Origin: Owenia fusiformis
Lineage: Eukaryota > Annelida > Polychaeta > Sabellida > Oweniidae
Direction: 5' to 3'
DNA: 64,000 nucleotides
NCBI GenBank assembly: GCA_903813345.2
Contig: CAIIXF020000009.1
Coordinates: 22,843,759-22,907,758 of the forward strand
Shown here: positions 1,691-60,860 of the stretch, in pieces
Position numbering within the stretch: the first letter of the stretch is position 1
Layout: each line of letters begins with the position of its first letter
Position numbers and translations under genes: made by a program
Notes under the pieces: model-generated
Told to the model about the DNA's origin: nothing
What the model saw: only the letters and a program-made list of their open reading frames with translations
The model's database searches: none

Positions 1691-1924
1691 TTACCTGCAA
1701 CCACATTTTGATACAACCATATCATCATATTTATATTTAATTGTCACCACACCCTCTTCGTCAATGTATATAATGCTTATGGGCTCCAGCTCCGTCGGGA
1801 CACAACACGTCCGTGATGTTTTCTTTGGATAGGTGGCGTGCAGAAGTGTTTGTATGATAGCGTGCTTGGTAGGAGTCAAGTGATCAGCTAATGGGAAATA
1901 ACAACGTCCACTACATTCAAACGC
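1691..1924 (-). CDS. BMP9/10-like exon 3: C-terminal cysteine-knot half
   Basis: The acceptor TTGCAG lies directly before GCG TTT GAA TGT (AFEC), so the spliced protein reads [11 protein letters not shown]. It contains six of the seven knot cysteines and ends CGCR followed by TAA at 1693-1691. It has the length and end expected of a BMP C-terminus. Confidence 0.92.
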
Positions 1925-12832: not shown

Positions 12833-12961
12833 TTCAATTGTCGCAGACTTTTGGCGCCGTTGTAATAGTTTCTCTTGTATATCCCTAGACTGAACGAAGC
12901 GACTTTTCTCTTTAATATCATTCTTTAAATGTCGTAAATCCTCCAAAATTGGCTTCTTGGA

Positions 12962-15900
12962 GTGGAGATTCGAAAAGTTTATTTCTATTTTGTTCTTCAG
13001 AAGCCACGGCTACTTGAAATGATGGCATCGAAGAAGCGTAAGAAAATTATAGGTCGAGAACCACGTCGCAATAAACACTGCCTTTTAATCACCGTTTGTG
13101 TGTTAATCCTTGGAGTGTTATCAGTCCGCTCCTTCATCCCACATTTTGCGGGTGTCAAAGCTAGGCAAACTGAACCATAATTCTTACTGCTATCAAATCA
13201 GCGCTCGATGGTTTTTGACAGATTTCTCATGCTACAAGGCTGCGCTTTTTCAGATGGTGTTACCGACCAATTGTTGCTGGTAGATCCTTATTCATATGTT
13301 CAACACTTTCCTTGACGGCTCTATTTTATACCAACACGTATTTGTGGAATTTGCTATTGGTGTAAGATAAGGGTAAATACATGCTACCAAGAGAAAAGCA
13401 AAGATTATTAATGCTGCTCATTTTTGATTAATGAACAAACTATTAACATACAACATAAAGCAAAAATTGTACGATCTGAAATAAGATCGAGAGCTGTTGA
13501 TAAAAAGTTAATTTATAACTTGAAAAGAAAAACTGCTTGTATATATATTATAATACTGTATCTGATATCTTCAGAACAAACATATTATAGTTTCAATAGA
13601 AATCAAAAAACCGAAGTACGGAAAATAATTTACTTGGTGAACACCCTGTATCAGGTCCCCTCCCTTGTCACTTTCAAGAGTAGTTCTTATGGGGATACAT
13701 AGGCGTAGCCATTAGATAGAAGATCAAGAAGAAAAGATATATAGAAGAAGAAAAGAAGAATACATTAATTTACTGATCACACACCTTTCAGAGTGATTGG
13801 TTGAAATCCAAATTTTAAAAGCATTTTTAGTGATATCCTTATTTCACTAATCTGATAATCCGTACGTGTCCCTCCAGTAGCTCAGACGGCCTCAATTCTA
13901 CGAGAATATGCGATTCCAATATATTCACAAACAGCGATGCGCACTTTCTAGTATAGGCTTCTAAGAGCTTTTTTGATACAGTTGAGCAATGTTTTATGGT
14001 TGTGACGTTTCTCCTGTGAAATAGAAATTTTGAAAAATATCAAAATCACCCGATGTTGGCATAGTCACAACTTTTCATTCACTCTGGTAATTTTACTTGT
14101 TTTGGCGTAGTAATCAAAGGTCAACTACAATCTTACAAGAAACAGTGTAGGACTTTTTATTAAGAAGCTTTCATTATTAATTTTTGGCAGTGATCAGCAT
14201 TTTCCATAAGCTTTAAAATGATATATCGGAAAGTATGATAACTTAAAAAATATAAAAGTTAAGGGGGGCAGACTTATTTGACGCCCTGTAGAAGAGGAAG
14301 AGCTTTAAAATGTTTTTTTTATATAAGAGTAACACACAATTTATAATTAATTGAAAAGATATAAGTATATTGGTGAATTTTGCACTAAACTTGTATAAAT
14401 CTACCTCTTTTGAAGGTACCAAAGTTCAAATATACCCCGGGTTTACTCCACAGAGGGCGCTCGTGAAAGGTAGAAGAGGTAGAATAAAAAATCTAAAGGA
14501 CCTTATACACCCTCCATTGGGATCTCCCCATGGGAAAAAAATAATTCATCTGATTTTTCAAAATGAGTATTCTGCTTCAATTATTACATTTACCGTATAT
14601 GCACACTAGTATCTTGTTGACCTATATTCAGCACTGTATTGATGTATAGGCCACTTATTAGGGTCATAATTCAATCATGAAGTGTAGAGGCATAGATTCC
14701 AAACCAGGAAGTATTTTTGTGTCTGTCAAAATCCATTTACATCCTACGCATCCCTGCATCTTATCCAAATATGTTACCACATAATGAAATATTATAGTAT
14801 AATCTTTGGTTTTACAAACTTGTATGATATTTAATAAGTGTAAAAGTTGTTTTTGGAGCATTTTTCTATAGCCATTTTGTAGGGAAAAAATGATGAAAAA
14901 ATGTATAATCTTTTGATTTTAAGTATGACCTGAATCGATTGCAAACTTCATATTTGCACATTTGATGAGATAAACCATTTGTGTCGTATTGTGAAATTAT
15001 TAAGTTTGCAATCGATTCAGGTCATAGTGTATTTTTGGTATTTCTGTGATAATCAATGGAAACCAATGGCCTCTATTAGGATCTGCTGATATCCTCATGT
15101 TAAGTCAATGGTGCACAGCCTCATGTAAGTCAATACAACCTTACTGAACGAAATGATCCCTATCTCAGCTTATGTGTGTCCGAGCACTTTAATATTTTCC
15201 GAAGTATTATATGACATTTTATTCTTCATGTTACACCTACGAATGATTCATTTTGACCATAGGGATATTTGCCAATAATTGCACCTTGACCTTTAAAATC
15301 GAGTTAATGGTTGTTTGAAATCAAGATTTATCAGTGCAATTACCAGTGAAAATGAACAGATATTATTTTTTATTTTATTTATCTTGTGTATATATCATTT
15401 TGCAAGAAGTATGACGAAATGATTCGGTTTACTTTAAACATTTGACTTTTTGTGATGGTGGTTTTGAGTTTGAAATCTATTAAAAATCGTTTTAAAAAAC
15501 ATTTTCAGTTTTAAAGGGTACTTGTGGAGCCATTGTGCTATATTGGGTTAGGTACCGAAATCTCTTTCTGAGCAATACCATGTGATTCTACTACTCACGG
15601 TACTACTGTATTTATTTCATAATTATTCCGAAGATTCTAATGTTTCTCCATTGGATTGGATTAGAGCATTTGTCTGTGTAGTTAAGTGGCAAGTCCACAT
15701 TTAGAACAGAAAATGTTAATCCAATGGGCCATCGTACGAATATTTCTCAATCCAAGATTTCAGAAAATCAACCACCATGTTCAAGAACACTATGTCCCCT
15801 ACCAGTGATAAAAATTTGAAAAAGATTTAGTCATAGATATCAAAAGTTTTGACCTGCTGTACTCTATTCAAATTTCTTAGAGTTTGGCGTTTGAATCTGG
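12962..15900. other. Intergenic, no gene recognised
   Basis: Short ORFs are present but lack family motifs or codon structure. The stretch contains a 101-bp hairpin (14925-15025) and two mariner-end-like motifs near 13645 and 14283. It includes the presumed 5' flank of the BMP9/10-like gene; no TATA box is obvious at a suitable distance. Confidence 0.4.
14925..15025. repeat. 101-bp hairpin with perfect 24-bp arms
   Basis: ATGACCTGAATCGATTGC... on the left is exactly complemented on the right, with about 53 bases between. The termini can be read as TA|TGACC...GGTCA|TA, so a small TA-target MITE is likely. Confidence 0.7.
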
Positions 15901-25354: not shown

Positions 25355-26478
25355 TCAAAAAGCCAGCCCCCTTTCTTTCATAAATTCCTCCACTTTATCG
25401 CTCATTTTTGGCTTCATCTCTTTAATTCTACGAGGAGTCACATGCAGGGCATCCATGCTTTTGATAACCGTTCTCACTTTTGTAATGTCCATGTCCTCAA
25501 TGCACTCACAATCCATAAGATATGTATTGGTCAGAGCTTGTTGTAGTTTCATGTATCTATTATCAAACACTGGTCCTTTCTGACCTACTTTTGGGGAGTG
25601 TCGTCTCCGACTCTGCGAAGAAATGTCCGCAACAATTGCAATTGATTTGACTGAGTTGTTTTCTCGCAAACCATTATTGTTATTCGGGGGAAATGTAGCT
25701 CTTGTTTTAGGTTTCAATTTATCGGCCTCTTTATTTTCAGTTTCTTTTGCAGGTGGCATATGTCCAACAGAAGGTAACTTTTCAGATTGTTTAGGAGTAG
25801 GTATGTTAAAGTTGGCAACATTTGTGTTTGGACGTGGTGGGCTTTGACTTTGGGCAAGTTTTGGCATTGCGCTTGTAGACGGTCTCGGGCGAGACACAGC
25901 AATCTCTGGCATAGAGGTTTGCCTTTTGGTCGGAGGCCTGTCGCGATCCCCGACTATTGTCGCACGGCGTTGTAAAGTTTGCTTGTCATTTGTCATCAGT
26001 TCATGTTGGTTACTTGAACTCTTTCTTTTTACGAATAGAGTATTCACATCAATGCCCCTCAGGAGATCTTTCATCACTGACGTTTTCCTTTGCTGCCTGT
26101 CGACAAACACTTTCTTCTCATATTCCGATTGAGATATGAACTTATACCGTTCCTTTGATAATTCCATTAATTTCGATGATAACATTCTCTCCTCAGTAAC
26201 GTTATCGGTTAGTTGACCTGAAACTCTCGCCATATCATTTCTCTTTCCCCCATATTCACCCAATATCCAGGCTTCAATCTCTTTAGCAGAATCTGATTTA
26301 TTACTAAGGAATTTAGAATGGAGTGCTCGTCCACTTCGGTTCAAATGTACTACTGGTTTAAGGTCCGCCGGGGTCCCAGCAACAGGAACAGTCGTCCCGC
26401 TGTCCATTTGAGGACTCAAATCCACACCAGGCATTGTAATTCCATCGAGTGTCAGTGCTCGTTTCTGAGTGCCAGCCT
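25355..26478 (-). CDS. Unrecognised basic, low-complexity protein, terminal coding exon
   Basis: A single long open frame ends in TGA at 25357-25355. The first ATG is at 26434 (359 aa), but the frame continues upstream to a good acceptor (TTTTTTGTAG at about 26479), adding AGTQKRALTLDGIT, so this may be the last exon of a longer gene; I could not place upstream exons. Residues 30-160 are mixed charged and helical (EIEAWILGEYGG, MLSSKLMELSKERYKF), the middle is Ser/Pro/Asn/Lys-rich and probably disordered, and the last 75 residues look structured again (LTNTYLMDCECIEDMD, VRTVIKSMDALHVTPRRIKEM). There is no signal peptide or membrane segment. The length and the structured-disordered-structured order make coding very likely. 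I do not recognise the family. Confidence 0.75.
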
Positions 26479-27882: not shown

Positions 27883-28814
27883 CAGTAAAACCTGTGTATA
27901 GTGAACATTTTTTGCCGAGAAAAAGTGTTCACTGTTGGTAGGTGTTCACTACAGCAATGATTTTATTTCGCGGCATTTGCTGTATTATATAAAGAGACTA
28001 GTTAAACAAGGCTAAAAGAGAGGAGGGAATAATCAATTAACTTTGTATTTTCTACCCATGATAACCAATGACACTCTAGCGATAAGTTTTTGTTTTATTG
28101 TAGTGTTATATAATTATAAAGACTCATTCTAAACCTGACTGTCATCTGAATGATTCATTTTTTTCATTGAAAAATTGTAATCTCTTTATTATTCTTTGTT
28201 GTGTAATAATAATCTCATTGAGATGATCCTTTAAATCGTGGAATCCTTGACACATTTGAGTCGGATAAAGGACACTATTGAATTAATTAAAGGACATGGT
28301 AGAGTCAATTAAGTGTGATCATTTGAATTTCAATTCAATCTGTTTTCAAATTGATGGGGATAAGAAAAAGATTGAATTGGGACTTATCAGATCGAGGTAT
28401 TAATTGTTAACCAGATCATCTCCAAAACAATCGATGCTAGACGAATATTCTGTCTTACAAAAACAAAGCTTATTAAGAATTATAATTAGTCACACCTGTT
28501 TCAACAGATAAAAAGAGGAGAGCAAGATCTCAAATTGACATTTTGATTATTTTTTGGCAGGTTATAAACATGAACTGCTTACTCTAAAGACAGTTGCAGA
28601 AATCGTATATCTGATTCAATGTTCACTAGAGGCAGGATAATTCAACTGCTTTTTGCCAAAATTTAGTGTTCACTGTTCACAGTAGGTAGGTGATCACCAT
28701 AGGATTGTACTTTAACATGGGAGTCAATGGGAGAAAGAGGTTTTGCCGAAAATAAACGTTCACTGTTGATAGGTGTTCACTAGAGAGATGTGCCCACTAA
28801 CTCGGGTTTCACTG
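27883..28814. mobile_element. Pogo/Tigger-like non-autonomous element
   Basis: The ends CAGTAAAACCTGTGTATAGTGAAC and the complement of GGGTTTCACTG match the general form of pogo/Tigger termini. Sub-terminal motifs with TGTTCACT and GTAGGTGTTCACT recur at both ends. Only a short piece of TA is visible at the right flank. There is no transposase. The left boundary of the 2.8-kb segmental duplication lies inside this element. Confidence 0.55.
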
Positions 28815-29165
28815 TACATGTATTGCACAAGTTTAATGTCTTCATCAAATACTCGATTGATCTTCTCAATTTGATTACCACCACTCTAATTAATGATGAT
28901 AATTAAATGTTTGAACATTGACCACAAGGAAGAATGCACAACAAAAAACATCAAAATATTAGAGTACGCCATCTTTTATGCATTTGCAATAATGAAATAA
29001 TGCTCTGATAATGACGTTTCATTTCTGACAAAGAAAACGGTTCTTTTTGAAATGATGTTGTTGTAGACTAGTAGGGGCAAAACAAGATCAGTTTTATGCA
29101 AAATTATCATGATATATTAGTTGCTCCGAAGTAAGATATTGTAACATCTCATCTGTTATCAATAC

Positions 29166-29323
29166 CAAGGTACATCGTGTTCTAAACCTTAGTACGTCTC
29201 CATCAATAGTTATATGTATTTTCTTCGCAGGTTAAGTAAAGGTACAAGGTACATCGTTTCCTAAACCTTAGTACGTCTCCATCAATAGTTAAATGTATTT
29301 TCTTCGCAGGTTAAGTAAATAAA
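29166..29323 (+). repeat. Tandem repeat, 79 bp, two copies
   Basis: CAAGGTACATCG... to ...TCGCAGGTTAAGTAAA occurs twice in a row with minor changes. Its last part overlaps the dispersed repeat family ending in TATGGAGGGGAG. Confidence 0.75.
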
Positions 29324-29392
29324 AATTCATAAAGAGGCTTTGACACGTAGTTCAATGGGAGAGCTAGGGTTGGCAAACTTATGGAGGGGAGT
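29205..29392 (+). repeat. Dispersed repeat family ('TATGGAGGGGAG'), copy 1
   Basis: Shares the series GTCTCCATCAATAGT, CGCAGGTTAAGTAAA, GAGGCTTTGACACGTAG, and CTTATGGAGGGGAGTG with 32545-32700 (plus), 39225-39282 (plus, partial), 60672-60860 (minus) and a short piece near 24408-24440 (minus). No coding content or terminal repeats were seen. The copy at 60672 shares at least 180 bp, so this is a genuine interspersed family. Confidence 0.75.
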
Positions 29393-30091
29393 GTAAATAA
29401 TATTCGACGATTAGTGTCATATTTAAGTAAATACTTAGAAATAGAAATAATGTTTTTGATACGAACGATCAATGGAGCGTGCAATTGTTGCAATGTAATA
29501 TGACATTTGCAACGTCTGGTATAATCAGAATGTCATTAATCAACAAATTTGCGCAATTATCACGGGTACCAACCAGACTCATCCTGAGAAAACATACGGC
29601 CGAATAAGACCCGCTGATACCATGTTTCACCAATAAATAATTGTCAGAGCTGAGAAATGGACAAAATGGTAATTCAGGCATTGATTGCACTCGTGTCAAA
29701 ATGGATGTTCTTCTGTTCGTGGGATTTCTTATGTGGGCCAAATCTCCATTGATGCAATGTTAAATTCTTGAAGAGCCTTGGTTTTTCCGTTCAACGACCA
29801 ACATTTTCGTGATTAATCACAAGGTGTACATTAACAGGATCATCCAATAATATGCCATTCAGCTATATAGCAATTCCCTTATTGAGGGGGACATACCGTT
29901 TGAACTATATCATATACTAGGTCTAGGTCTAGGTCTCAAGGGTATATCGTTGAATAGAATTTAACTCAATGATACAACGGATCATACTCGCAAACTCCTC
30001 TGATTCTACAGCTGCCTTACTCGCGGTACACATGCTTTATCACGTGTGGCGCAATGGATCTTACAAGATCTTAAAGTTTGGAAATTGTCCG

Positions 30092-30273
30092 GGTGTCAAC
30101 GTATTTATAGTCCGCCAGTAAATATAGTCCGGGGTTATATTGTATACCAATACAGAAAATATGGTCCGGGTTAGACCATACACCCTAGGACACCAGGTCC
30201 TCCGGACCTGGTGTCCTAGGGTGTATGGTCCTACGGACTATATATTCAGGGAGACTATATTTACTCTGACACC
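30092..30273. mobile_element. 182-bp palindromic insertion with perfect 26-bp hairpin core
   Basis: Terminal repeats GGTGTCA and TGACACC are followed inward by matching TATAGTC/GACTATA stretches. The core 30175-30229 has two perfect 26-base arms around a 3-base loop. The paralogous copy B at about 33508 has no insertion (reads straight through GTCCCGGGTC), so this is a real insertion after the duplication. No clear target duplication. Confidence 0.85.
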
Positions 30274-30436
30274 GGGTCTTTCTTTACTCGACGGTATGCT
30301 GTCTTCAGCGGGATCGAGTTTATGCCCGTACATTACGCTGACTTATGATTTGTAAATACCTGGTGTTGTTAAATACGTAAAAGTCACACACATTAGAACA
30401 TCGAGCTGTGGGAAAAGGACACCAATCTTTGTAATC

Positions 30437-30507
30437 ATGAGAATATTGCTTCTTATTTCAGTTGTCGTTTGTGTCTCGACATTTCATGAAGCAAATGCAG
30501 GCCAAAG
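30437..30507 (+). CDS. Antistasin-like gene, first exon copy A (signal peptide)
   Basis: ATG at 30437 encodes MRILLLISVVVCVSTFHEANA, a typical cleaved signal peptide, then GQ and two bases of a Ser codon; the donor is AAG|GTAAGT. It splices in frame to exon 2 at 35170 (first base C). An equivalent exon, copy B, lies at 33691-33761. There is no evident TATA box upstream. Confidence 0.8.
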
Positions 30508-33500
30508 GTAAGTAAACGAAACTACATGTTATCACAAACTTATGCAGTGCCTTTTATAGCCTCGTCCAAAAAAAATTTTGCGCGAGGTTACAAATCCTTC
30601 AGGGCAAACCATAGGTAAACCATATGACCGTAAAGGTCGAGAAAAGTTACAAATATTGAGTAAGAATAGCAAAGTTGAATTGAGCTTACATCATTATCAT
30701 TTTATATCTTGTTTTATTGGGGGAGAATTAATTTGTGCCTTTTTGGGGAGTGTTGAGTTGGCGGAGTGGTCTAAAGCGCTGAACACACAAGGATATGCGC
30801 TGTTGCCTAAACCATGAGGTCGTGAGTTCGAGCCTCACGAACTCCTTAGGTTTATTTATCCATTAAAGCCAAACATACACCAATGGTCAAGTTGGGACCT
30901 CCTAAGACGGGCGTGGGGCCTCGTGGGACTTCATGGGATTTTGCCCGATGGAGTCCGTGGGACTCCATGGGACTTCCTCCGATTTTGCCCCTCGGCCAGA
31001 TTGGGCAAAACCCCATGGAGTCCCATCAAGCTCCATCGAAAATATTATTCTCTCCATGGGCCATCGTTGGATTTTTGATCGATTTACGACATGTTTTATG
31101 AAGCCTAGCATACACCAATTGGACACGGTGGGATTTGATGGGACTATGGGACATGATTTCGCGGCATTTGCTGCATCATATAAAGAGACTAGTTACTAAA
31201 CAAAGCTAAAGAGAGCAAGGAATAATCAATCAACTTTGTATTTTCTACCCATGATAACCCATGACAAGTTTTTGTTTTATTGTAGTGTTATATAAACTGA
31301 CTTATTTTAAACCTGACTGTCATCTGAATGATTCATTTTTTAATTGAAAAATTGTAATCTCTTTATTATTCTTTGTTGTGTAACAATAATCTCATTGAGA
31401 CGATCCTTTAAATCGTAGAATCCTTGACACGTTTGAGTCAGATAAAGGACTTTATTGAATTAATTAAAGGACACGGTAGAGTCAATTGAGTGTGATCATT
31501 TGAATTCCAATCCAAGCTGTTTTCAAATGATGGGGATAAGATTGGGACTTAGCAGATCGAGGTAATAATTGTTAACCAGATCATCTCCAAAACAATCGAT
31601 GCTAGACGAATAATCTGTCTTACAAAAACAAAGCTTATTAAGAATTATAATTAGTCACACCTGTTTCAACAGATAAGAAGAGGAGAGCAAGATCTCAAAT
31701 TGACATTTTGATTATTTTTTGGCAGGTTATAAACATGAACTGCTTAACTCTAATAAGGCAGTTGCAGAAATCTTTTATCTGATTCAATGTTCACTAGAGA
31801 CAGGATACATCAACTGCTTTTGCCAAGATTTAGTGTTCACTGTTCACAGTAGGTAGGTGATCACCATAGGATTGTACTTTAACATCGGAGTCAATGGGAG
31901 AAAGAGGTTTTGCCGAAAATAAACGTTCACTGTTGATAGGTGTTCACTAGGGAGATGTGTTCACTAACTCAGGTTTCATTGTACATGTATTGTGCAAGTT
32001 TAATGTCTTCAACAAATACTCGATTAATTTTCTCAGTTTGACTACCACCACTCTAATAATGATGATAATTAAATGTTTGAACATTGACCATAAGTAAGAA
32101 TGCACAACAAAAAACATTAAAATATTAGAGTACGCCATCTTTTATGCATTTGCAAACACAAATTATTTTTTGTAACTTCATTTAAAATCGAATGCTGGAA
32201 ATGGCCTGGATTGGATCGATTTAACTTATGAATTTTCAAATTATTTCAATATAATATAATTAATTAAAAGCCAAGTGAAATTGAAGTTCGACGGCAAATA
32301 TGCGATTCTGTCTTTGAATGTTTAAATATTTTTACTCTTTAAAAGTCTGTTGTTTAAAATGATATTTTGTCTTTCTGTTCTCGAGTGGTCGTCCAAACGT
32401 TGCATGGACTGGAACAGTGTCTTGATGGAAAGTGGCATAAAACATTTCCTAGCACGGAGAATGACGATTACGTCGAATGCCACTCTTGTGCGCTAACGTG
32501 ACACATGAGATTTTAACCAATAAGGGTAAAAGGGGAAAAATTGAGAAAAATAGATATTGGAAATAAAGTCAAATTACGTTTCCATCAATAGTATAAGTAT
32601 TTTCATCGCAGATTGAGTAAATAGAAATTCAAAGGTAAAGAGGCTTTAACACGTAGTTCAATTGGGGAGCTAAGGTTGGCAAACTTATGGAGGGGAGTGT
32701 AAATAATACTCGACGATTAGTGTCATATTTAAGTAAATACTTAGAAATAGGAATAATGTTTTTGATACGAACGATCAATGGAGCGTGCAATTGTTGCAAT
32801 GTAATATGACATTTGCAACGTCTGGTATAATCAGAATGTCATTAATCAACAAATTTGCACAATTATCACGGGTACCAACCAGACTCATCCTGAGAAAACA
32901 TACGGCCGAATAAGACCCGCTGATACCATGTTTCATCAATAAATAATTGTCAGAGCTGAGAAATGGACAAAATGGTAATTCAGGCATTGATTGCACTCGT
33001 GTCAAAATGGATGTTCTTCTGTTCGTGGGATTTCTTGTGGGCCAAATCTCCATTGATGCAATGTTAAATTCTTGAAGAGCCTTGGTTTTTCCGTTCAACG
33101 ACCAACATTTTCGTGATTAATCACAAGGTGTACATTAACAGGATCATCCAATAATATGCCATTCGGGTTGCAGACAGGTTCAACCAAATCTTTTTGACAA
33201 ATCGTGAACTTAAGTGACTATTTCACGTTTTTGCCACATACAGTAGCCTCTGGCAGTCTGGCCCATCTATTTATTCTGACATAAAATTCAGCTATATAGC
33301 AATTCCCTTATTGAGGGGGACATACCGTTTGAACTATATCATATACTAGGTCTAGGTCTCAAGGGTATATCGTTGAATAGAATTTAACTCAATGATACAA
33401 CGGATCATACTCGCAAACTCCTCTGATTCTACAGCTGCCTTACTCGCGGTACACATGCTTTATCACGTGGCGCAATGGATCTTACAAGATCTTAAAGTTC

Positions 33501-36500
33501 GGAAATTGTCCCGGGTCTTTCTTTACTCGACAGAATGCTGTCTTCAGCGGGATCGAGTTTATGCCCGTACATTACGCTGACTTATGATTTGTAAATACCT
33601 GGTGTTGTTAAATACGTAAAAGTCACACACATTAGAACATCGCTTGTTATCATTTTGAGCTGTGGGAAAAGGACACCAATCTTTGTAATCATGAGAATAT
33701 TGCTTCTTATGTCAGTTGTCGTTTGTGTCTCGACATTTCATGAAGCAAATGCAGGCCTAAGGTAAGTAAACGAAACTTCACGTTATCACAAACTTATGCA
33801 GTGCCTTATAGCCTCGTCCAAAGAAAATTTTGCGCGAGGTTACAAATCCTTCAGGGCAAACCATAGGTAAACCATATGACCGTAAAGGTCGAGAAAAGTT
33901 ACAAATACTGAGTAAGAATAGCAAAGTTGAATTGAGCTTACATCATTCTCATTTCATATCATGTTTTATTGGGGGAGAATTAATTTGTCATTAAAGGTCA
34001 TCGAGGTCCCATGGGACTCGGTGGGATTCGATCGGCCAAGTTGATATTCGATGGGGCAAATGGAACTCGATGGGTCAAGTTGGATTTTGAGGATTTTGAG
34101 TTCCCTGAGACTGATCGGGGGAAATAAATTGATCAATATAAAACCCAATCCCTGGCCAGTATTTAAGCGTTGTATATCACATGCTTTTGAATGATTGAAA
34201 GATAATCTAAATATCAAAAAGATGATCCATGGAAAAATAATAAATCACATTTTATATATTTTTATGAAACTTTTATTGATAATACATTTTAAAAAAAATT
34301 TGGTGAAAAACTAAAAGAAAATGAAACCTTTCGAAAGGTCTGTAGGAATGTATACCAAACACATCAAAATATTTTCAATTTGGGTCCATTTTGTATCTAT
34401 ACGAAGTTATTGCAAGGAGTTATTGTAAATTGACAAAATCATATTTGTTTGATAATTCTATGGTAAAAGATACCATTTATGATTTCGGTTTACAGAGTTC
34501 AAATGAATGTAGTTTGAGATACCCTTCAATATTTTCTCTTCATATTTGGTCACATTGTTTATCATATTTTATTACAACTAGTTTCAAATGTGTTAACCAT
34601 CATTGGCTGAAATGCAGCAAAAAAGTTGATGGCTAATCACCGTTCCACAGCTGGATGAATCTAACTGCAGCTTCATTCAAGATGGTTGCCGAAATTATTT
34701 CGTTTTCGATAAACCTCCGATTTCAGCTTAACTAAGTTGAATCTGAATTCCAAATGTTTCGCCATGCAAATTGATAAAGCTGCGATGGTAAATAACCACA
34801 AATAAAGGCTCACACAACTGCGATATCAGAGAACTTTAATGAAAATTGTTTCACTTAGAATGACACTGAAGTTGATGATGACGTAATGATGACGTAGATC
34901 ATCAACTTCAGTTAGAGTCATTCTAAGTGAAGCCGCGTTTTCTTTAAAATACACTAATATTGAGGGTGTTTGGGCATTCATTTTAGTTGAATACAATCGT
35001 AGCTTTATTAATTTGCGAAACTTTTGGAATCAAGATTCAACTTAGTTTGGCTGAAATCGGAGGTTTATCGAAAACGAAAGAATTTTGACAACCATCTTGA
35101 ATGAAGCTAACTGCGGTTAGAGTCATCCAGCTGTGGAACAGTGCTAATGAAAAACTTTATATTTTGAAGCTGTGAATACGAGGGGAAAATATATCATCAG
35201 GGAGAAAAATTTAACAAGGATTGCAACAAATGTAGATGCAACAAAAATGACGAAATAACGTGTACCATGAGAACCTGTGGAGAGATGTGCGAGTGGAAAG
35301 GTAAACCATGATATTATATTTATTCGATCTAACCCCCCTATCACACCAAACTAGTTCTTACCCGTTCTTGCCAGTCCTACAAAAACGTCGTAAAACGGGC
35401 TCAATCAGGCTGTGGTCGGGGAATATGTCTGAAATAATTAGCTTCTTCGTTCTTAAACAGTCTCCAATACGTCCATCTCGTTCGCAGTTCGTTCAGGTCG
35501 CACCACGTCGGTGTGCAACGTCGTAGAACGCGTCCCTTAGTCTAGAAGGTCAACATGACCTGATTACAGAACGGTATGGTCGCCATCGAATTTTGAATCG
35601 ATTCAAAATACTAAAATCACATTCCCGTCTGAGAACGTTCATAAAGTTCGTAAATAGACCTTAGAAAGTTGCAGCTATACGTTCATTCCGTTCGCACATA
35701 GTTTAAAACCAGTTTTGAAGAACGCAGTGGCAACTTGTTTGGTGTGATAGCTATATTTTTGCTAACTCGTTAATAAGCAGTGTTAAACACGTTCTTAATC
35801 AGTTTAAACCCGTTTGCAATTAGTTCTACCTCGTTCTCAACACGTCCTCAGACAGTTCAACCAAGGGAAAGATCAATACCCGGTGATTTCAGCGGGAAGT
35901 GGCGTTTCGTTCAGTGGATGAGCTGCGCGCGCACGCATAAATGTGATTATCCAATATATCAATACCCGGTGATTTCAGCGGGAAGTGGCGTTTCGTTCAG
36001 TGGATGAGCTGCGCGCGCACGCATAAATGTGATTATCCAATATAATTAGGGGAGGGCTATTTGAAGTAGTTTTTGGTCTCAGGCGCGACCCAGGGCTGTT
36101 GTCTTAAGGACATTTCGTTGAAAATGAGCCATTCGGCTGATAATTGGTAAGAGTTTGCGATCTTATAATGTATAACTGTTACTCAGACACATATTTTGAC
36201 ACGATTCTGTTGGAAATAAGCTTTGAACCGAGAGATATTCACGATTGATATGCACATTTTTGATTGTGCCATTGCTTTTCTATTGCACAATCCATGTATT
36301 GATAGAAGAAACATTAATAATGCAGATTGGTTTACCTTCAATACATGGCAGACACTACATATCGGTCTATTAATACCAGTTTGTGCCTTAAATAGTTTTA
36401 TATTTCCATCCACGGCCTGGAGCCTGGGTGTGTTTGTCTCTTATGTGTATGCTTGTGCATGGACTTCTAATCACTAGCAGAATTTAACATGATGCAAACT

Positions 36501-39500
36501 CGACATTATAACTCATGCTGTAACATTTTGACTTCGCTGGAAAACAATAGGAATTATTTTTCTTGCCAATCAATCATGAATCACAATCAAAATTTCAGAA
36601 TGATCAATCAGGCAATTGTCCAAATCAAGTTATAACATTATATGATATTCAGCAAGAAGTCCGGTAGAAATACAGAATATTTAAACATCAAAGCTGAAAG
36701 TTAAAAGCTAATCTGTCAATTTTCTGTCTGCAAAAGAGCGTTTACATTTGACACAATAACAGACTGAGGCTTTGAAATCTAGGATTCCCCAGGAAAATAT
36801 GACGTCATACTAATTAGCATAAGGATTTCCCTATTGGTATGGGTCGAGCCTTGTTCGAAAACACAATCCATAAATACATGCTAATTTCTAAGGAGATAGG
36901 AAGTGTATAACGTGTTTATCGATTTTGTTTAAAGATTTAATCAATTATCAAATTGTTTAAGTGGATAAAGTGGTCACACTTGCTTCAATTCATAGCGAAA
37001 TCGACGGATAGAAACTGACCGAATTCCCGATATCCTACCCCGTATTACTGTAGGCTATAAGCACAGTGACCTAGAGAGGGCGCTATCACAAACAAGTACT
37101 GCACGAACCGATAAATTCCCGGGTATTGTAACGCCCTTGGTTCAACTCGTTGTTAAAACGTACCTAGTAGGATTGAAGTACGACGGTTCCGTTCGTAGTA
37201 CGTCCAGCTCATCGTTAGTACGTTGTCACTCGTTCTAATTGTAGAACGTGACGACCACGAGAACATTTTGAGCATTGTCTAAGTTCTAGAGGACCTACCC
37301 GTTCGAGTACGTTCGATGAAGTTTGTAAATAGATCCCAAACGGTTCTTAGTAGGTCCGGTCCGTTCGTACACAGTTGAAGCCCGTTTTCTTAGAACGTAG
37401 TGAGAACTAGTTTGGTGTGATAGTAGGGTAAGATAGACCTTAGGCCTGGCAATAAAGTAATAAATTGTGTATAGTCACGCGGTACTAAAGCTACGCTCAC
37501 ACCAATGGCGCTTTGATGGCGCTTTAAAGCGGCTTGTAAAGCGGCACCAAAGCGTAACAAAGCTTGATTAAAGCGTCGGGGTCGTAATAGGTCGTAGAAA
37601 GGCTCGGAGTAAAGTGGGATATTCGGCAAGAGCGCAAAAAATTAAAACTGTTCAAGCTACGTTCGCACCAACGGCGCTTTGATGGCGCTTTAAAGCGGCT
37701 TGTAAAGCGGCACCAAAGCGTAACAAAGCTTGATTAAAGCGTCGGGGTCGTAATAGGTCGTAGAAAGGCTCGGAGTAAAGCGGGATAATCGGCAAGAGCG
37801 CCAAAAAATTTTAAACTGTTTAAAAATTTTGGGCGCTCAGTTACGAATTGATAAAAGCGCCGAGAGCGTATCAAAGCTTAACAAACCGTAACAAAGCTCA
37901 GCAAAGCTTGACCCAAAGCGTAGGAAAGCTTTACAGAGCTTAGTTCAAAGCGGGGACCCTAGTCTCTTCACTGTCTGTTACCACTTGATACGCTTCGTTA
38001 AGATCTCTCAAGATTTGCTACGATCTGGCATAAAGATCTGACACGAGGTCAGACGCTTTCATCAATATCTGACACTCTTTGATACATTTTCATGAAGGAC
38101 TCTCAAGCTTTCCAACGAATTGAGACGCTTTAATCAAGGATTGAAACGCTTTGCTAGGCTTAGTTACGCTTGACAAGTTTCCACACGCTATATCACGCCG
38201 TGCGACAAACACCATGTCTTCTTCAGATAGGTCATGCTCTGGTCCATCTGGAATTTCTGGATCTTGTTGTTCTGCCATCGTGTTCTCGAGTCAAAGATGC
38301 AATGGTTTTATGGATCTACTGCATCTTTATATAGTTATTGGATCAAAAGTGGCATGAAATTGGCAATCTCGACATTTTCCAATGCGTGACAGAGCTTAAC
38401 AGAGCGTAACAATGCACAACAGAGCTTGGTATTCGTATCAGAGCCTGATTTAAAGCGTCATTATCGAATCAAAGCGTAATAATGCTTATCAAAGCGTGAT
38501 TTCAAGCGTAACAAAGCCTGGTCAAAGCGGGATCAAAGCGTGAGGAACCTATCAGAGCTATGTTAAGCTTTCCTACCCTTTGGATCAAGCTTTTCTGAGC
38601 ATTGTTACGGTTTGTTAAGCTTTGATACGCTCTCGGCGCTTTAATCAATTCGTAACAGAGCGCCCAAAATTTTTAAACAGTTTAAAATTTTTTGGCGCTC
38701 TTGCCGAATATCCCGCTTTACTCCGAGCTTTTCTACGACCTATTACGACCCCGACGCTTTAATCAAGCTTTGTTACGCTTTGGTGCCGCTTTACAAGCCG
38801 CTTTAAAGCGCCATCAAAGCGCCGTTGGTATGAACAAAAATGATAAAAATGACGGCGCTTTGCTCGCCGATTTAAAGCGTGGCATTCGCCGTTGGTGTGA
38901 ACATAGCTTTAGTCACCAGGGCGTATCGAAACCAAAACGCCCCGCAAAGCCGTTAATTTGAATTTCAAACCAATGATTGTGAGTCTCATAGTATACCGTT
39001 TTTCTTCAAACTCGTTCCATTAAAACCTTCACAGAAATACCTTTCAGTCGAGACATTACTTTTGTGTACAGAGTCACTCGTTTTAGCGGCGTTTTGGTCC
39101 CCAGAGGAGAGAAGATGCAAATCTTTAGCCTCCATATATCGCCAGTTCCTTTATTATTCTCCCCTATATTTTGCACAAGGACTCCCATTACAACCCTCCA
39201 TCTCTGCATCAACAGAGAGAGGCTTTAATACGTAATTCCATAGGGGAGCTAAGGTTGCCAGCCTTATGGAGGGGAGAGTATGACTCCTGGTTCAAAAGCT
39301 CGCCTATTTTCAAAATGGCCGTCATTTTTGTCAAAAAATTTTGGCAAAATTTCTTTTGGACCATTTGGTAGCTCTATGAATAATTGCAGGTTCCCTGCAT
39401 TGTAAAAATCCAATGTAAAGAGTAGTTGTATGAAATAATTTTGTTGCATAAAATCGCCAACATATTTTCAGCCATTTTAGTTAACATTGATTTGTCCATC

Positions 39501-42500
39501 TGTCTCTCAGTCAGTCCACAATTGTGACACGTTTAAAAACTTTTTGTTCAACATCGATACAGAAAACCCATCTACTGCTGGTTCAAAAGCTTGCCTATTC
39601 TCAAAATGGCTGCCATTTTCGTCGCCTAAAATTCACTTTTGGACCATTGGTAGCTTTATAAATAATTCCAGTTGTCCTGCATTGTGAAAAAAACATGTTA
39701 ATGTAAAGAGTAGTTGTATGAAATAATTTTGTACAAAAAATCGGCAAAAAATTAAATCCATTCTCTTTTTATTTTCAGTCATTTTAGTTAGCATTGATTT
39801 GTTCACCGCTCAGTCAGTCCACATTTAGTGGTACATTTTAAAACCGTCGATAGGATTCCTGTTTAAGTTATCTCTGTTCAACGTCAGAAAACCCTCTTTG
39901 ACAAAAGCTCGCCTATTTTCAAAATGGCTGCCATTTTTAATTTTCAGCCATTTTAGTTGACATTGATTTTTACTATTTTTACTCAAATGTTTTCAATAAT
40001 TGGTTTAAGAGAAAAACAATGTTGAATCCATTTCGCGATATCGGTGATCGATTTGAAATGTGCCCCCCCCCCCTTGTTAACTTCTGGATCCGCCAGTGTA
40101 GGGAGCTTGAAAATATGAGCCCCCTAATATGGTTGTCAGATTCAAGAGAATTTTACAAAAACCTGTGGTATTTACATACATACCTGCAAGGAATACATCT
40201 ATCGGTTGGCCCAGAACCCCTGGCGAAATATATTTTAATAAAGATATTCGTACACAAGTATAGTCCAACTGTTTTAGACTGTTCGAAAGTACCGTGTCCC
40301 TTGCTCAGTTGTGTCCATGGTTCACACACGCCTGCAAACAAATGCTGCCCTGTTTGTAACCCAGGTACGTATTTGTTTTAATTCAAAGTAACAAGTAAAA
40401 TGTTGCAACGTCTACTTTAATATCATTATTAAAACGACTTCTTGTTTCTACCTCACCCTCTAGACCGCTTCCAATTTGAAGAAGATGTGATTATGCCTGC
40501 AACCAATTTGATTGAAATTAAATATCGAAATACGATTGAAATGTCGAGCTCAAACATTACGAGAAATCTAGAATTTAGCGATCTGCCTAGATATGTATAT
40601 TGTTGAATCGATGTTATGAAAAGCCATCGACCTGCGCCTGCAAAGTCGACCTGCGACCGTGGGACTTTAGGTATCAAAAAAGAAGTGGACTACCTTGATG
40701 ATAATTGAACAAATAGTTTTCAGGATAATGCAATTTAAGATTACAAAGTATTCTCCAAGAACGAATCTAGGCTTATAAGAGAAAGGTGGAAAAATAGGAA
40801 TCGGGAATGTGTCAAGGAAAATCAGTATATCATATTTGAAAACCTTCCGTTACATTTGTTCAAAGATTTAAATGGCAGTACCCTACGTGGTACATACAGC
40901 TCACGTCTCCCAATGCGTCTTCAAGGAAAGTCCTCACAACTAGGTAGTTCTTCTATGATGTCTAACATTTATTTGATATTCCTGCCATGTGATGCAAAAA
41001 TTAAGCAACGTTATCTAGAATTGTGTCCTGTGGGAGCAGCATGTGCATGGCGTCTATTTGTAGATCGTAGGTAGAAGGCAGGTTCAGGTTGTGGGTCTTA
41101 TAACATTCATTTTTGAATCCAGATCCAGCACCTAGAACTATGGCTATGGGGGTGGCATCAGTGTGCAGTCCAGTGACGTGTAGAATGTATTGCGACTTTG
41201 GATTCGTGAAAAATGACACTACAGGATGCGACATTTGCAAATGCAACAAGAGCCCATGTGATGTAAGACATTTTCCCCATCGATTGGTCAAATGGTCCAA
41301 TCGAATACCGTTTAGACCAATCCTTAAGTTTGCTGAGACAAAAATCACGCCTAACCATCGACAAGGCACAGTGACAAAATATACCGTTGTACACTTTAGA
41401 TGTACGATGTCACTATTTAACCGATTTGAAGCAAAGACAATGATGCAGGGGTGGTGTAGGTTTTAAAAAATTAATCTTGGGTATACTTGAAAGATTTCAT
41501 GTTTAATTTCGTACATGTATTCGTTTAGGAAGACATTTAACTTTCTAATAACGTTTAAAGATTTTCGAACAGTGCTAGATTTTTTCGTAGTCAATCTACT
41601 AACGAAAATTGATTGGTTGGAAAATGTTGGGTTTTTCACATTTCCTTTGATCATTTTTTCCCTGTTGCCTAAGAGTGTCGATTATTTTTATGAGAATATG
41701 TTTCTCTATACTACACAATTTAGGACGGGTGGAGATTAATAAATATTCAAGTATTTATTGTAATTTAAAATAATCAGGAATGTGCGTTGTCAACTCGAAT
41801 GTACGTTGTCCCTGTAATTGAAATTCATGAGATATATGTAATATTAACACAATGTAATGATTTCATTTCAAATTCATTAAGGTTTTTACGAGTAACAAGT
41901 GATCTTTCACGAACAAGTTAAAGTATCCTTTTTGCTTTTTCACTTTATGAAAGTATTGTTGTTGTGGTGGTTAAAGACATGTTAAGCAGATATGTAGGTC
42001 AGTATTACATAATCATGAAATGAATAAGTCTGAAAATACAATTGGTCAGAATGTACTAAAACCTGCTTGAAACTAAAAAACATTGCATGCTCTATTCCAC
42101 ACAATTTGGAAGCTTTTGAAATTCGCAGTAACAATGAATAAGCAGCCTGTATATAATCATTGCATAGAAAACACTTCATGAAGTGTTTATCAGATGTATT
42201 GAGTTGACCAAAATACCCCTTTGTTTACTACACACTGGACTACATACTTGCACCCTTACATATATGTTACTGTACATATTGTAGAATTAGCCCATAAGAG
42301 CTTTGCAAAATCAACATCTTATACTATCAACGTAATAGACGGCTTGCCCAACTTTACAGGCAAACTATTATATACAAATTTGAAGATAAGACTGATATTG
42401 TCACATTGAATTATGATAATAAGTAAATAACATTTTGTAATATTTTGCACAGGTATGACCATGCACAGTAGAATAATACACAGGGTCACCCTAAATTGTA

Positions 42501-45500
42501 GAAACATGAATATGTTTCTAACTTATAATTAATTAATTCATATATCCCAAGGATTTTACCTGTTCCCTTCCTGACCAAACCTTGTTTTATTTTTGATTTT
42601 TACAATAAAATAAACTACTCTATCATTTTTATTTCCATTTATTGACATGAGAACTCAAATAATCAATGGGAAAACAATGCTAAACGTGCACACTTAAATA
42701 GGTATTCCAGCAAGCCTAGGAAAATATGGCAAGAAAAAGATGATACACCTAAGGGCTACAGGTGGACAAACTATTCCCCCTGAAAAGTTTTTTAAGGGTC
42801 AGATCACTAAATTCATGATTGCATTGAAAAGCTTTGAATGCTAATTTTCAAGAATGGATGTATTACAAAAGAAGAAAATATGAAGAATTCATATCGTTTA
42901 TTTCGAGTGATTATTTAGTGTCAAGTTTTGTCTCTCGTGACAGCATGTTACTGAATATCTCATCAAGTGACCTAAACTACAGCAGCTAAAATAAGCATAC
43001 CGAAATATTATAATTTAGTATGATTCTTACAATTTAGCTGAATTCTTGAATTTGAAGATCTACTGCTATATTGTTTAATATGCATTATAACAGATCGATT
43101 TGATGGTAAGAACTAGTATGTGATATGATTTATTTTACCTTTTTGTCATCATTGCTAAGGAATATAATAATACCATTCCAATTAATGATAACTCACTTAT
43201 TGTATTACTTCCGCTTGATACACATGCTGGAAGATATGCTTTTAGAATTAGTAAACCATTACCAAAACTATGGTTACCCTGTAGTAGTGAAAGGCACATT
43301 AAAATGAATATCACCCCCTTCAATCTATTTTTACAGGTTTTTATGATTATTTCACGTTTTTCTATATTTTGCGTAACCAGGACGGTGAATTTTCTTCATT
43401 TTTCTTCAAACATTTCGTCTAACCAATATTTATTATATCTGTCAATTTCAAGAAAATCGCGCCGCTACGTTTGAAAATAATCCAAATTATGTCATTTTTC
43501 CCATTGAGCTCCATTATAAAAATGGAATTTTCAAACTTAATATTTTAAAATTCTACGTGGTGAAAAGTTGCATATTGAGTAGTTAGTTAATGTTATGGTG
43601 TAAAAAATTCAAAACAATAAGGAATAAAGAAAAAATGCCACGGAGAAGTCTCTTTAACAACTCTTTAATTTGTGCCTATTTGGTGTTAGCTTCCAGCCCA
43701 ATAAAACTTTTATTTCCAATCACATTAATACTACAACTTTGGGAATACAACTATTATATCTAAAATTTTGGATCTAGACAACCAGAAAGACGAAGCAATT
43801 CTCAACATTACAAAATTAAAAGACGCGTGAACCCTATTTTAAACTTCATGATATCTCAATTACCGTTGTAAAGTCGAAAATGACCAATTGTTAACGTCGT
43901 TCTCAGGTTGACCCAAACCCCTGCCCAGAGGACAGCGATAAGCCAGTGTGTGATGTACGACAGGGCAAGGCAGTTTGCATTCGCCAACGTAAGTTAGCTC
44001 AGATATATTATGTCCTCTATATATGGGCAAATTTACGATAATTGATATTTCAAAATCAGTTGTTCTACTAAAGCCTGCGTCGTGTGTGGTGATACCAGCG
44101 ACATTTGATGATTGTTATTCTAAAGTCATCACATTTGGTTATCATAGTCATGCGATGTATGCTGAAAATATTGCTTATTATTTCTCAAAAACAGCTTAAA
44201 TTATGATTTTTTGTCAAAAACAAAGTTTTGTTTTGTTTGCGTTGATACAAAACCGGATTACAGCCCATACACAGTACAGAACATAGATTGCGTTGATAGT
44301 TTAAAAGGGCGATGTTAGATGTGTGTTACCCATGCAATGAAATACTTTTTCTATGCATATACCATCTGTCTAATATTTTGTATTCTCCAACACACTTAAA
44401 TTACCATTGCTGGTGCATCATTTGTTAAAGATTTCGCCAGATTTTGTTGGGAATTTAGGTTTTGCTGTCCGATATTTTGTATCCTCCAAACATGAAGATT
44501 TCATCAATGCACACAAATGATTTCAAAAAATTATTTTCAGAAATGAGACTAATTCTATTAAGTATTTAAATGATATTGTTATATAAAATCTCAATCTTAT
44601 CGAATTTTTTAGTAAATTGAATATGTTGAGCATGTGTTGGAGGATACAAAACATATGGACATTATAAAACGTGTTATCTTTTAACTTTTTAATGAGTAAT
44701 ACATATCAAACAACCAGTTCTGAGAGATGGTCGGGAACATATTTTATTAACCAGTTAGAAATTATCGACGGACTGCATATTTTGTTATGTTGTCCTAGTT
44801 TAATTTCCATAGCAAAATCTGATTTTTTGTCAAAAAATCACCATTAAGCTGTTTTTAAGAACTAATAAGTAACATTTTCAATATATATCGCATGGTCATG
44901 GTAAACAGTTGTGTTCACATCACGACAGCACACATATAATATCGTTGATATCAATACACATGGCGCAGGATGTGGTAGAATAGCAGAATTCATGGATTTA
45001 GAAAAATATCAATTATCGTAAATTTGCCCATATGTGATATACAATAATCGTTTTGGCATGCAAATTAAAACATTGACCTATATCCTATATGTGACATGAA
45101 AGTAAGATGATATAAATTGAAAATAATTTTGTTTTAACAGATTGTCCCCCGATATGTGCCATGTACTGCCAATTTGGATTCAAGATTAACGAGACTACCG
45201 ATTGTCCAATTTGTTCCTGTAGAGAACATCCGTGTGCAGAGGTAAAAACTGAATTCCCATACAGCGTTAGATTAAATGTTCCATGTCTCTGTGTGACCAT
45301 TCATCGGGGCTGGGGGTAATTTAGGGGTTGGGCCATCACGTAAAGCCCGTAAAGACTTCCTTATATGTCAACAAATCCACTACACAATGTAATAGCAGCC
45401 TTGCGAATAGGTCAAATTGTCAATTCTAGAGATTGGGAATGTAAACATGCGAACCGAAGTGCAACTTTGTTATCTTCCCGAAAGTATACTTTTCTATACG

Positions 45501-48500
45501 AACGCCCTACCGTACATACCAATCAATGGGAACGTCACGCAAGTTGACGTTGGTGTTTTTTGTTTTACCCTGCCCTCAGAATCTAGTTATAAACGACACG
45601 GTTGGAGACGAAGCTCTCTTTTGAGAAGCGAAGTCGAACGAATTTAAAGGGTACAGTACTCTTCCCTTATAAAATGAAAACTAAAATGACAATGTGAATT
45701 AATATTCACAATTACAATGAAAATGATCGATTCAAGGGATTATGAATGTCATGTATTCATTTCAGCCAAATCCTTGCCCCGATGACAAACCTTTTTGTTT
45801 GGTCAAAGACAGGAAGGCTGTTTGTCAAAGTAGGTGTAATTCTTGTAGGATGATCACGTTATCATTATGAATATTTGGAATTGATGGTGGAGGGGTTAGA
45901 AAAGAGTTTTCAAAATGTATCCCCTCACTTGTTAAATCCCTCTCATTGTCTACAGTAGTCGCATTCTATTCAAGATCATTGAAATTGTAGCTGCTATTCG
46001 CAGGTGACCCAAGTCGAGTTGACGGCCTCTGTCGGTTAGTTCCACGACACCCCATTCATAATATCTTTCCGTGACACAAGATTTGTATACGAAATATAAC
46101 AGATCTTTTCAGTAAAGATGGAGACCTTACCCTACGGAAATGGAGACAATGTTTCACAGTCAGTTGGGCGCCTCGAGCGCCCAGTCGCTAGGGAATTGAT
46201 TGTAATTTGTATGGAAATATATCCGAAATTGCTGTGAAACATAATCTCAATGTCCGTAGGACAAGGTCACCATTTCAATAAGATGGTCTGATTTCGATGT
46301 CGTAAATAAACCGACAGAATGGTGTAAACACCACCGTGTTATGGTCGGTTTTGCTCTGCAGTTCAAATCGCAGAGACGTGTCGCAAAAAGCTCGAGCACG
46401 CATTGTTACACATTTTGTGGCGTAATCCAGAGGATCCTCGCTTTTAACATGATAGAATGTGACGTTTTTGAGAAAAATGAGCACTTATGGAAATCCTTTC
46501 GTCCTCCACATTTGCCTCTATATCTCAAAATATTTAAGGCGAATAAATCTGATATTGTATATGTATTAACAATGGGTTAGGAGCATCATAAAACACGAAT
46601 CAATTGATATTTTAGGTGAAATAAATATACGTGTTGCTGTGCTTGAAAATAGGCGAATGGCGTAAATTAGCCCTATTTTAATGAATTTTGAACAGAACAT
46701 ACAACAGAAAACACATACTTTTGTGAACAAAATCAACTATTTATTAATAAACTAGAGTTTAGGAGCAAAATAATCATGTATGATTTATTAAAAATTGATC
46801 TCGTATTTTTTGTTTTATGTACACCTGAAAAGTTGAAGGTACCAAAAAATGAACAAAAAAGGTCGCTGTCAACAGATTCTATTTTTCAGACTCTATGACG
46901 TCACAATATGGGACGCTTACTAAAATTCATCCTTTGAAATAAAACTTCCATCTACCTTTATCAAGACGAAAAATAAGTATAATAGTCATATATTGTTTGA
47001 GTTATGAGCGTTTAAAGACGAAAAATAATTCAAAATGTAACGTGTCAACATGGGATATTTGCCAGATGTTTTGGTAAAAAACTCTTTTTTAAAAACGAAC
47101 GCGCAAAAAATGTGAACGGAGTGTAGTTGATCTAAAATCTTCATCGAAACAGCTTTAAAATGATATATAAGGTATGAGTACCGTAATCCAACACCAAATT
47201 CGAAAATTCATAACAATACTTTGCACATATGGCGTTCGTGACCAACTATAAAACGCTTACCCCCCATAGTGTTATATATCAAAATGTACCTGTTCATATA
47301 GGGGTTCGATTGATCTACATCAAATTATAGGGAGTCAGGTTACTTTTTGAGATATCAGCGTCCATTTATTGTGACTCGCGTTTGCTACCACTTCCTCAAT
47401 TCTGATATGATGGGCAAACGCGTATTAAACATGCTCACGTCGGAACTATTTTTGACCTACATCGCTATTTTCGTAATTCAAATGAAAGTTGAACTCCTCC
47501 TCTTTATTTTGATACCAAATCGTGGCATACTAGGTACCCTAGAAGCCAACTATGGCGCTATTTAGAACAAAACCACAAGTTTTTAAATGGACTATATAGG
47601 GGTCATACCTTTTGGCGGATGGATATGGAACCTCATACCTTAATGTGTTATGACATCACACTGATTTTTGTCTCTGCAACTTTTTTTGGCAGAAAATATC
47701 ATTTCTAGTTCAAAAATGCATAAAAACGTCGGAACTGGCTGAATATGTGAAAAATTTATCCATTTAGGCTAGAAAGGGTTAATTTGCCCTACCCCAAATA
47801 CGTCTAAATATGCTGGTCTAACTTTGCCACTGTGACGTCACAAATCTAACCTGACTATCTCTGAGTTTATTGAAGAAAATGATACGTCTGACAAACAGCT
47901 TTCATTCCCTATATGGCACACCTTCTACTAAGAGTTGCATCATTGACTAAATCTAAGACAAAGGGCCTGTGCCCCGAGGATTTTGACTGAAATTTGGCCA
48001 TTTTCGCCCAAATCTAACTAAATTGCAGTTTCCCTCACACCTGTATTTTGAAATAAATATTGCTACAATGTAGCAATTTGAAAATCACACATGCTTACTG
48101 TTTCTGTCGACCTGACACGTGTATCTAGCCTGTAAAAATGAAAAATCGCTACATTGTAGCAATTTCACTGAGATATGGGCCCTGAAAATCATGTCATTTT
48201 AGCAAAAAATGAAGAAATAACCTGCAATTTTGACGGAATTTCAGAGGGCTTTCTTTCATTCCAGACCCTCCACGGGCCTCTTATGACCATTCTTATACTC
48301 ACAGAATGGTTGAAAGTGATTTCAAATCATTGTTTGCCCTACGCAGAACGAAAAAATCGATTCTGTTCTCAAAATCTGCTAGAATATTGGTCTCTGGCCA
48401 ACTAGCAGACAATTTTAGGCCTCATATTAAGGTATGAGTACCGTAATCCAACACCAAATTCGAAAATTCATAACAATACTTTGCACATATGGCGTTCGTG

Positions 48501-60671: not shown

Positions 60672-60860
60672 ATGCACACTCCCCTCCATAAGTTTGGCAA
60701 CCTTTGCTACCCCATTGAACTACGTGTTAAAGCCTCTTTACCTTTGAGTTTTTATGTACTTAACCTGCGATGAAAATACTTATACTATTGATGGAAACGT
60801 AATTTGACTTTACTTCCAATACCTCCAATTTTTTTCCTCAATTACAATAGGTCGAAAATT
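60672..60860 (-). repeat. Dispersed repeat family ('TATGGAGGGGAG'), copy on minus strand
   Basis: Reverse complement of the repeat at 32545-32700; starts CACTCCCCTCCATAAGTTTGGC on the plus strand. Nearly all motifs are in the same order. Confidence 0.75.

Follow-up and report, generated by a model that had tools for sequence, protein, structure and literature searches.

The 64,000 nucleotide stretch of Owenia fusiformis DNA analyzed here (assembly GCA_903813345.2, contig CAIIXF020000009.1, positions 22,843,759-22,907,758 of the forward strand) contains a predicted secreted VWC/antistasin gene in which the exon encoding the signal peptide occurs twice. This whole stretch is referred to as the window, and all coordinates are positions within it. 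Two paralogous predicted first exons, labeled 1A and 1B, lie in direct tandem ahead of one gene body, and it is plausible that they serve as alternative first exons of one secreted gene. The explanation that we favor, at about even probability, is a partial tandem duplication of the 5' end of the gene, with both first exons spliced to exon 2 and with 1B as the main start. The duplication was found by a blastn self-comparison of the window (E 1e-10), after which the copies were aligned, and the exons were traced through splice signals, phase and cysteine pattern; exon boundaries are predictions throughout.

Two signal-peptide exons ahead of one gene body

Exons 1A (30437-30507) and 1B (33691-33761), both of 71 bp on the plus strand, begin with an intact ATG, encode the signal peptides MRILLLISVVVCVSTFHEANA-GQ and MRILLLMSVVVCVSTFHEANA-GL, respectively, and end at the same phase-2 donor, AAG|GTAAGT. 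A preliminary description of the locus had reported this repeated exon with its GTAAGT donors and equal phase, and the coordinates and donors held when checked, as did the two amino acid changes, I7M within the signal peptide and Q23L directly after it. Both first exons are indeed in frame with exon 2 at 35170, and a single 536-residue frame results from either. The statement that there is only one gene body was likewise borne out, as the self-comparison revealed no second exon 2 or later exon within 30508-35169. Exon 1A as the start of a separate gene was considered and rejected, since this interval had no second exon 2 at E 1e-10 and its three plus-strand frames gave no Pfam match up to E 1. 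Two weak Pfam matches below the cut-off, one to NopRA1 (E 0.039) in copy 1 of the duplication around 28166-28300 and one to SlyX (E 0.47) around 31352-31405 of the minus strand, were taken as chance.

The sequence MAG|GTAAGT occurs at three sites on the plus strand, namely 1A, 1B and position 23719, and at one site on the minus strand, and the donor scores of 1A and 1B, computed with a matrix from the gene's 11 other donors, were reached by no more than 3 of 3575 plus-strand GTs. Each strand was also searched over its first 63000 bases for ATG frames, 14-60 codons long, that end at GT[AG]AG in phase 2. Among the 18 candidates (12 on the plus and 6 on the minus strand), no core was as hydrophobic as those of 1A and 1B (3.58 and 3.29), the next being a minus-strand frame (2.22) and then an internal ATG of 1B (2.20); 1A, 1B and this internal ATG were the only three plus-strand candidates between 12000 and 35169. 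The signal peptide has an A-N-A motif before G22, in agreement with the signal-peptidase cleavage rule.

Exon 1 differs between the copies at 2 of 71 sites, namely base 21 (T in 1A, G in 1B) and base 68 (A or T). In the same aligned block the upstream flank differs at 2 of 165 sites and the downstream flank at 7 of 226, and the conservation of the exon does not exceed that of its flanks. The 165 bp upstream of the two ATGs differ by two substitutions and one 15-bp insertion or deletion (indel). The distance to exon 2 is 4662 bp for exon 1A and 1408 bp for exon 1B.

Structure of the tandem duplication

Copy 1, distal to the gene body, spans 27966-30735 (2770 bp) and copy 2, the proximal one, spans 31157-33987 (2831 bp), both on the plus strand. 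The self-comparison resolved them into four collinear direct blocks offset by 3.2-3.4 kb: 27965-28989 / 31156-32155, 29272-29860 / 32575-33164, 29857-30094 / 33286-33516 and 30272-30736 / 33511-33988. The trimmed blocks comprise 2260 aligned sites, three copy-1 bases being shared by two blocks and entering the count twice. Of these sites, 80 differ (50 transitions and 30 transversions; 3.5% overall), and there are 18 small gap events.

Collinearity between the copies is incomplete. The middle segments, 28989-29275 and 32155-32579, have no match to each other, and each copy has private sequence. Copy 1 contains an insert (30090-30271; 182 bp net), with edges that have CGGG at both and can be placed to within about 5 bp, that has inverted ends, GGTGTCA/TGACACC, seen by eye, and an internal hairpin at 30155-30247 in the self-comparison; its end lies 165 bp upstream of the 1A ATG. 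Copy 2 alone has a 125-bp segment (33161-33285) with ATTC at both edges, as judged by eye, which would agree with loss from copy 1 through a microhomology deletion, and 15 bp at 33642-33656, or 35-49 bp upstream of the 1B ATG. Thus the earlier characterization as a 2.8-kb direct duplication was correct in that two direct copies exist, while its start at 27957 was about 9 bp early and it left out the unmatched middles, the 182-bp insert, the 125-bp copy-2 segment and a 421-bp junction between the copies.

In a separate observation from the self-comparison, a dispersed repeat occurs at 32552-32700, 60676-60824 (minus strand) and 39218-39280, and is present also in copy 1 at 29272-29394.

Patchy divergence between the copies

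A feature newly found here is that divergence between the copies is patchy, with near-identity over the promoter-proximal part. In a tract at 29446-30456 (partner 32752-33710), which begins at -991 and extends into exon 1 as far as coding base 20, the copies differ at only 5 of 823 aligned sites, compared with 66 of 1160 to its left (5.7%; Fisher P 5e-11) and 9 of 277 to its right (P 0.002), although the edges used in these Fisher tests were picked from the data and the permutation tests carry more weight. The left and right sides did not differ significantly from each other (P 0.13). The longest substitution-free run covers 441 aligned sites (29631-30078 / 32937-33499), ignoring gaps and spanning four indels; in 5000 permutations, which take no account of mutation-rate variation, the longest run averaged 136 sites with a maximum of 322, and none reached 441.

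The likeliest cause of the near-identical tract appears to be gene conversion of the promoter-proximal part, an event that, following divergence of the copies, would have homogenized about 1 kb around the promoter together with the first bases of exon 1. By hand count the tract contains 6 indels for 5 substitutions, whereas the ratio outside is 15:75 (P 0.009). Conversion alone does not explain this excess, and the indels would have to postdate the conversion, which is a cost to the explanation.

The same tract could instead be constrained regulatory DNA, with selection maintaining both 5' ends and the two promoters partly different in expression. Its extent from -991 to coding base 20 is where promoter elements would be expected. 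Constraint should also limit indels, yet the tract has six, including the 182-bp insert and the 125-bp difference, and functional constraint is for this reason the less likely cause of the near-identity; in addition, 441 substitution-free aligned sites resemble conversion more than they resemble scattered binding sites, and the exon is not conserved beyond its flanks. We regard selection on both 5' ends as very unlikely.

An antisense gene within the tract was also considered and rejected: the minus-strand open reading frames at 29472-29759 and 32778-33116 gave no Pfam match up to E 0.1, and the frame is shifted by a 2-bp indel between the copies.

Possible use of the two first exons

Under the explanation favored here, a partial tandem duplication would have copied the signal-peptide exon together with the DNA upstream of it and the beginning of intron 1. 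Each copy would have brought its own promoter, the copied segment covering about 2.5 kb before exon 1, and because this much upstream DNA is included, both copies are probably able to start transcription. A transcript from 1A would be expected to skip 1B for want of a strong acceptor, and either exon could then be spliced to exon 2. The products would be nearly identical, with a mature N-terminus of GQSC... or GLSC..., one residue apart. We suggest that transcription probably starts mainly at 1B, with 1A as a weaker and redundant start, since the insert ends 165 bp before the 1A ATG and 1A is 4.7 kb from exon 2, compared with 1.4 kb for 1B.

To gauge what an intact exon signifies, neutral evolution was simulated with exon 1B as the initial sequence and with the substitution spectrum and gap rate taken from the data, an exon being scored as intact if it kept its ATG, frame and GT. 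At 2.5% divergence 55% of runs left the duplicate exon intact, a share that fell to 44% at 3.5%, 27% at 5.5% and 10% at 10%. These values also agree with the alternative that only one exon 1, most likely 1B, is used and the other is a silent relic, intact through lack of time. Such a relic is further compatible with both exon differences being nonsynonymous, for which the neutral probability is 0.52, and with the 182-bp insert stopping 165 bp short of the 1A ATG. The 165 bp before that ATG are little altered, though, so that a promoter copied along with them should have been active at least initially, and we consider a silent relic possible but somewhat unlikely.

The 15 bp private to copy 2 allow another arrangement. 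Together with the next GAG they form a modest acceptor-like site at 33660, in the 78th percentile of AGs, which might have made 1B an optional internal exon, and a 1A-1B-2 transcript would encode a tandem double signal peptide. The acceptor of exon 2 itself ranks in the 76th percentile (by a slightly different matrix), and the 1A-1B-2 reading is in frame. Against this, the score at 33660 is unremarkable, an in-frame reading has a one in three chance of arising, and the 15 bp could equally be a deletion in 1A; the arrangement seems extremely improbable.

Several points count against the proposal that both first exons are used. With 27-55% of neutral copies staying intact, intactness is weak evidence of use. 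No TATAA is present in the 600 bp upstream of either ATG, and the acceptor of exon 2 is weak, with 24% of 3079 AGs scoring equally high. For the conversion step, the indel excess, the data-driven tract edges and the neglect of rate variation in the permutations, all described above, belong here as well, and patchy divergence is in addition compatible with an allelic artefact in the form of haplotype mosaicism.

The junction and the possibility of an assembly artefact

The copies might be two alleles of one locus placed in succession in the assembly, that is, uncollapsed haplotypes. The 3.5% overall and 5.7% local difference could be the heterozygosity of a highly polymorphic animal, and the patchiness would be natural for haplotypes. 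False exon gains of this sort have been documented, and in the cited section they mostly have a gap between the copies and sometimes a read-depth gap (PMC9516828). The 64 kb contain no N, and there is accordingly no gap between the copies.

The 421-bp junction segment (30736-31156) contains GGGACT-type repeats and, by eye, a tRNA-like stretch for which neither ARAGORN nor Rfam made a call. Under a misjoin, one of the outer flanks, to the right of copy 2 or to the left of copy 1, should recur in the junction at allelic identity; blastn-short at E 0.01 gave no match of the junction to either of them. By local alignment, a 28-bp stretch of the junction (31115-31142) resembles the right flank of copy 2 (34008-34035) at 23 of 28 sites with a score of 31, which was equaled by none of 200 shuffles and which speaks for the artefact. 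The alignment to the left flank was no better than shuffles (score 18, equaled by 153 of 200), and when the last 300 bp of the junction were aligned with gaps to the right flank, the score was 64.4, above the mean of 300 shuffles (39.6, sd 7.3) and under their maximum of 69.2. The similarity of the junction to the two flanks seems too low for allelic sequence, and we judge an assembly artefact to be unlikely. The junction may be the diverged or rearranged tail of the duplicated unit, or an insertion.

The downstream VWC/antistasin gene

Joined from either first exon, the 13 predicted exons encode 536 residues with 84 cysteines and end in a stop at 52784. Exon 2 (35170-35300), which is VWC/pacifastin-like and in phase, follows the weak acceptor ...TTTTGAAG. 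It begins one base ahead of the first cysteine codon and directly after an in-frame stop, and since its start directly follows a stop in its own frame, exon 2 needs an upstream exon such as 1A or 1B. The remaining exons, all on the plus strand and all predicted, are exon 3 (40278-40364), exon 4 (41123-41262), exon 4b (43907-43988), exon 5 (45141-45241), exon 6 (45766-45829), exon 7 (49101-49198), exon 8 (50032-50095), exon 9 (50274-50371), exon 10 (51562-51649), exon 11 (52039-52416) and exon 12 (52576-52784). Exons 4, 5, 7 and 9 encode antistasin parts, exon 11 is VWC/pacifastin-like, and exon 12 encodes the last VWC domain and the stop codon. Exon 4b was located by a search for phase and cysteines, the phases having required such an exon.

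Pfam assigned four stretches of the 536-residue model to antistasin (E 7e-25), four to VWC (E 3e-13) and three to pacifastin (E 1e-8), all above their cut-offs, with four weak families below theirs, and the best match to a solved structure was antistasin 1skz (E 2e-4). No transmembrane-like stretch follows the signal peptide, the highest 19-residue hydropathy beyond residue 25 being 1.21. Given these Pfam domains, the signal peptide and the lack of a transmembrane-like stretch, the label of a secreted VWC/antistasin gene in the preliminary description is right. Scans with the 536-residue protein gave no pattern match among viral contigs and three among genome contigs, none of which was confirmed by tblastn. 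A literature search made without the organism name found no publication on this VWC/antistasin locus.

Exons 6 and 8 are identical at 63 of 64 bases. Around them, about 160 aligned positions were 92.5% alike in the self-comparison. From the near-identity of these exons it would follow that the gene grew also by internal exon duplication or conversion. A 481-bp direct repeat (47163-47643 / 48424-48903; 99.6% identical) lies inside a predicted intron of the gene.

Intron 1 contains a 506-bp foldback (palindromic) element at 34638-35143 that has CTAAT on both sides and ends 26 bp before exon 2. Like the near-identical tract and the 165-bp distance between the insert and the 1A ATG, this element was absent from the preliminary description. 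The inner CTAAT is about 22 bases upstream of the exon 2 AG, and this pentamer occurs 61 times on the plus strand. The exon-side CTAAT could act as a branch site, and a target repeat of this sequence would carry a branch-site-like motif in duplicate. Matches to microRNA families at 30160-30242 and 34842-34942 were rejected, as they fall below the Rfam gathering scores and on hairpins of inserted elements; the best was to mir-9457 (51.3 bits against a gathering score of 90; E 2e-8).

Comparison with known systems

Duplicated first exons are already known. In the plant Arabis alpina, PEP1 (PERPETUAL FLOWERING 1, the FLC orthologue) is described in the cited section as having a tandem duplication of about 2 kb that includes the first exon and parts of the promoter and first intron, so that transcription from two separate start sites yields two transcripts (PMC7927791). 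Human PGM1 is described as having two promoters and two related first exons, 1-1 and 1-2, whose encoded segments are about 51% identical (PMC7101342). This pair is older than the Owenia pair. The Owenia locus resembles PEP1 in its tandem first-exon duplication before one gene and PGM1 in its two related first exons before one gene body. It differs from PEP1 in that the transcripts of the latter have been demonstrated, whereas the Owenia exons are predicted. PEP1, a MADS-box gene like FLC, is not known to encode a signal peptide, and PGM1 is a metabolic enzyme that is not known to be secreted. First-exon duplication of the PEP1 and PGM1 type is thus not new; the Owenia case is apparently young, and the near-identity of the tract is its added point.

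The clustered protocadherins and the chelicerate sDscam genes contain repeated 5' units that are spliced to constant exons and as a rule have a promoter of their own, according to the cited section (PMC4835542). By analogy, these clusters can be viewed as elaborations of the duplicated-first-exon kind. They have many diverged cassettes that alter the protein, in contrast to the two near-identical exons in Owenia, where the signal peptide is expected to be removed. For a sea urchin gene, first exons that are used alternatively and change a signal peptide have been described, and the cited section does not state whether they originated by duplication (PMC5457136).

In its domains the predicted protein is reminiscent of CRIM1, for which the cited section lists four antistasin and six VWC domains together with an insulin-like growth factor-binding protein (IGFBP) motif, a transmembrane segment and a tail in the cytoplasm (PMC11922885). 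Four antistasin domains and an extracellular placement with VWC domains are common to both. CRIM1 has six VWC domains compared with four VWC stretches in the Owenia model (Pfam, E up to 1), and its N-terminal IGFBP motif has no counterpart among the model's seven Pfam matches up to E 1. Unlike CRIM1, with its transmembrane segment and tail, none was found in the model, in which the stop follows the last VWC domain.

If both exons are used, the locus would be a young natural case of alternative promoters formed by tandem duplication, with proteins still nearly alike, in which it could be followed whether paralogous promoters diverge, convert or die. For annotation, it is of consequence that a gene caller may pick either first exon. 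Were the copies an assembly artefact, they would caution against counting such exons.

Neighboring features of the window

The window is A+T-rich and carries four tRNA genes along with animal-type genes with introns. On the minus strand, frames at 1694-2008, 5834-6685 and 12311-13009 match a TGF-beta/BMP-type ligand (TGF_beta E 2e-20, propeptide E 6e-18), the match of the third being weak (E 0.024). These three frames (1694-13009) probably form one gene, divergent to the VWC/antistasin gene. VWC proteins often bind TGF-beta/BMP-type ligands. It is tempting to speculate that two working copies of the promoter and signal exon, kept alike by conversion, change the dosage or timing of a secreted regulator beside a divergent TGF-beta-type gene, as opposed to diversifying the protein, a proposal that we consider distinctly doubtful.

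A 373-codon open frame on the minus strand at 25358-26476 had no Pfam match up to E 0.1 and, as a guess, is possibly part of a mobile element. Finally, the self-comparison revealed a tandem array at 55768-57334 with a period near 236 bp, whose shifted copies are 74-84% identical.

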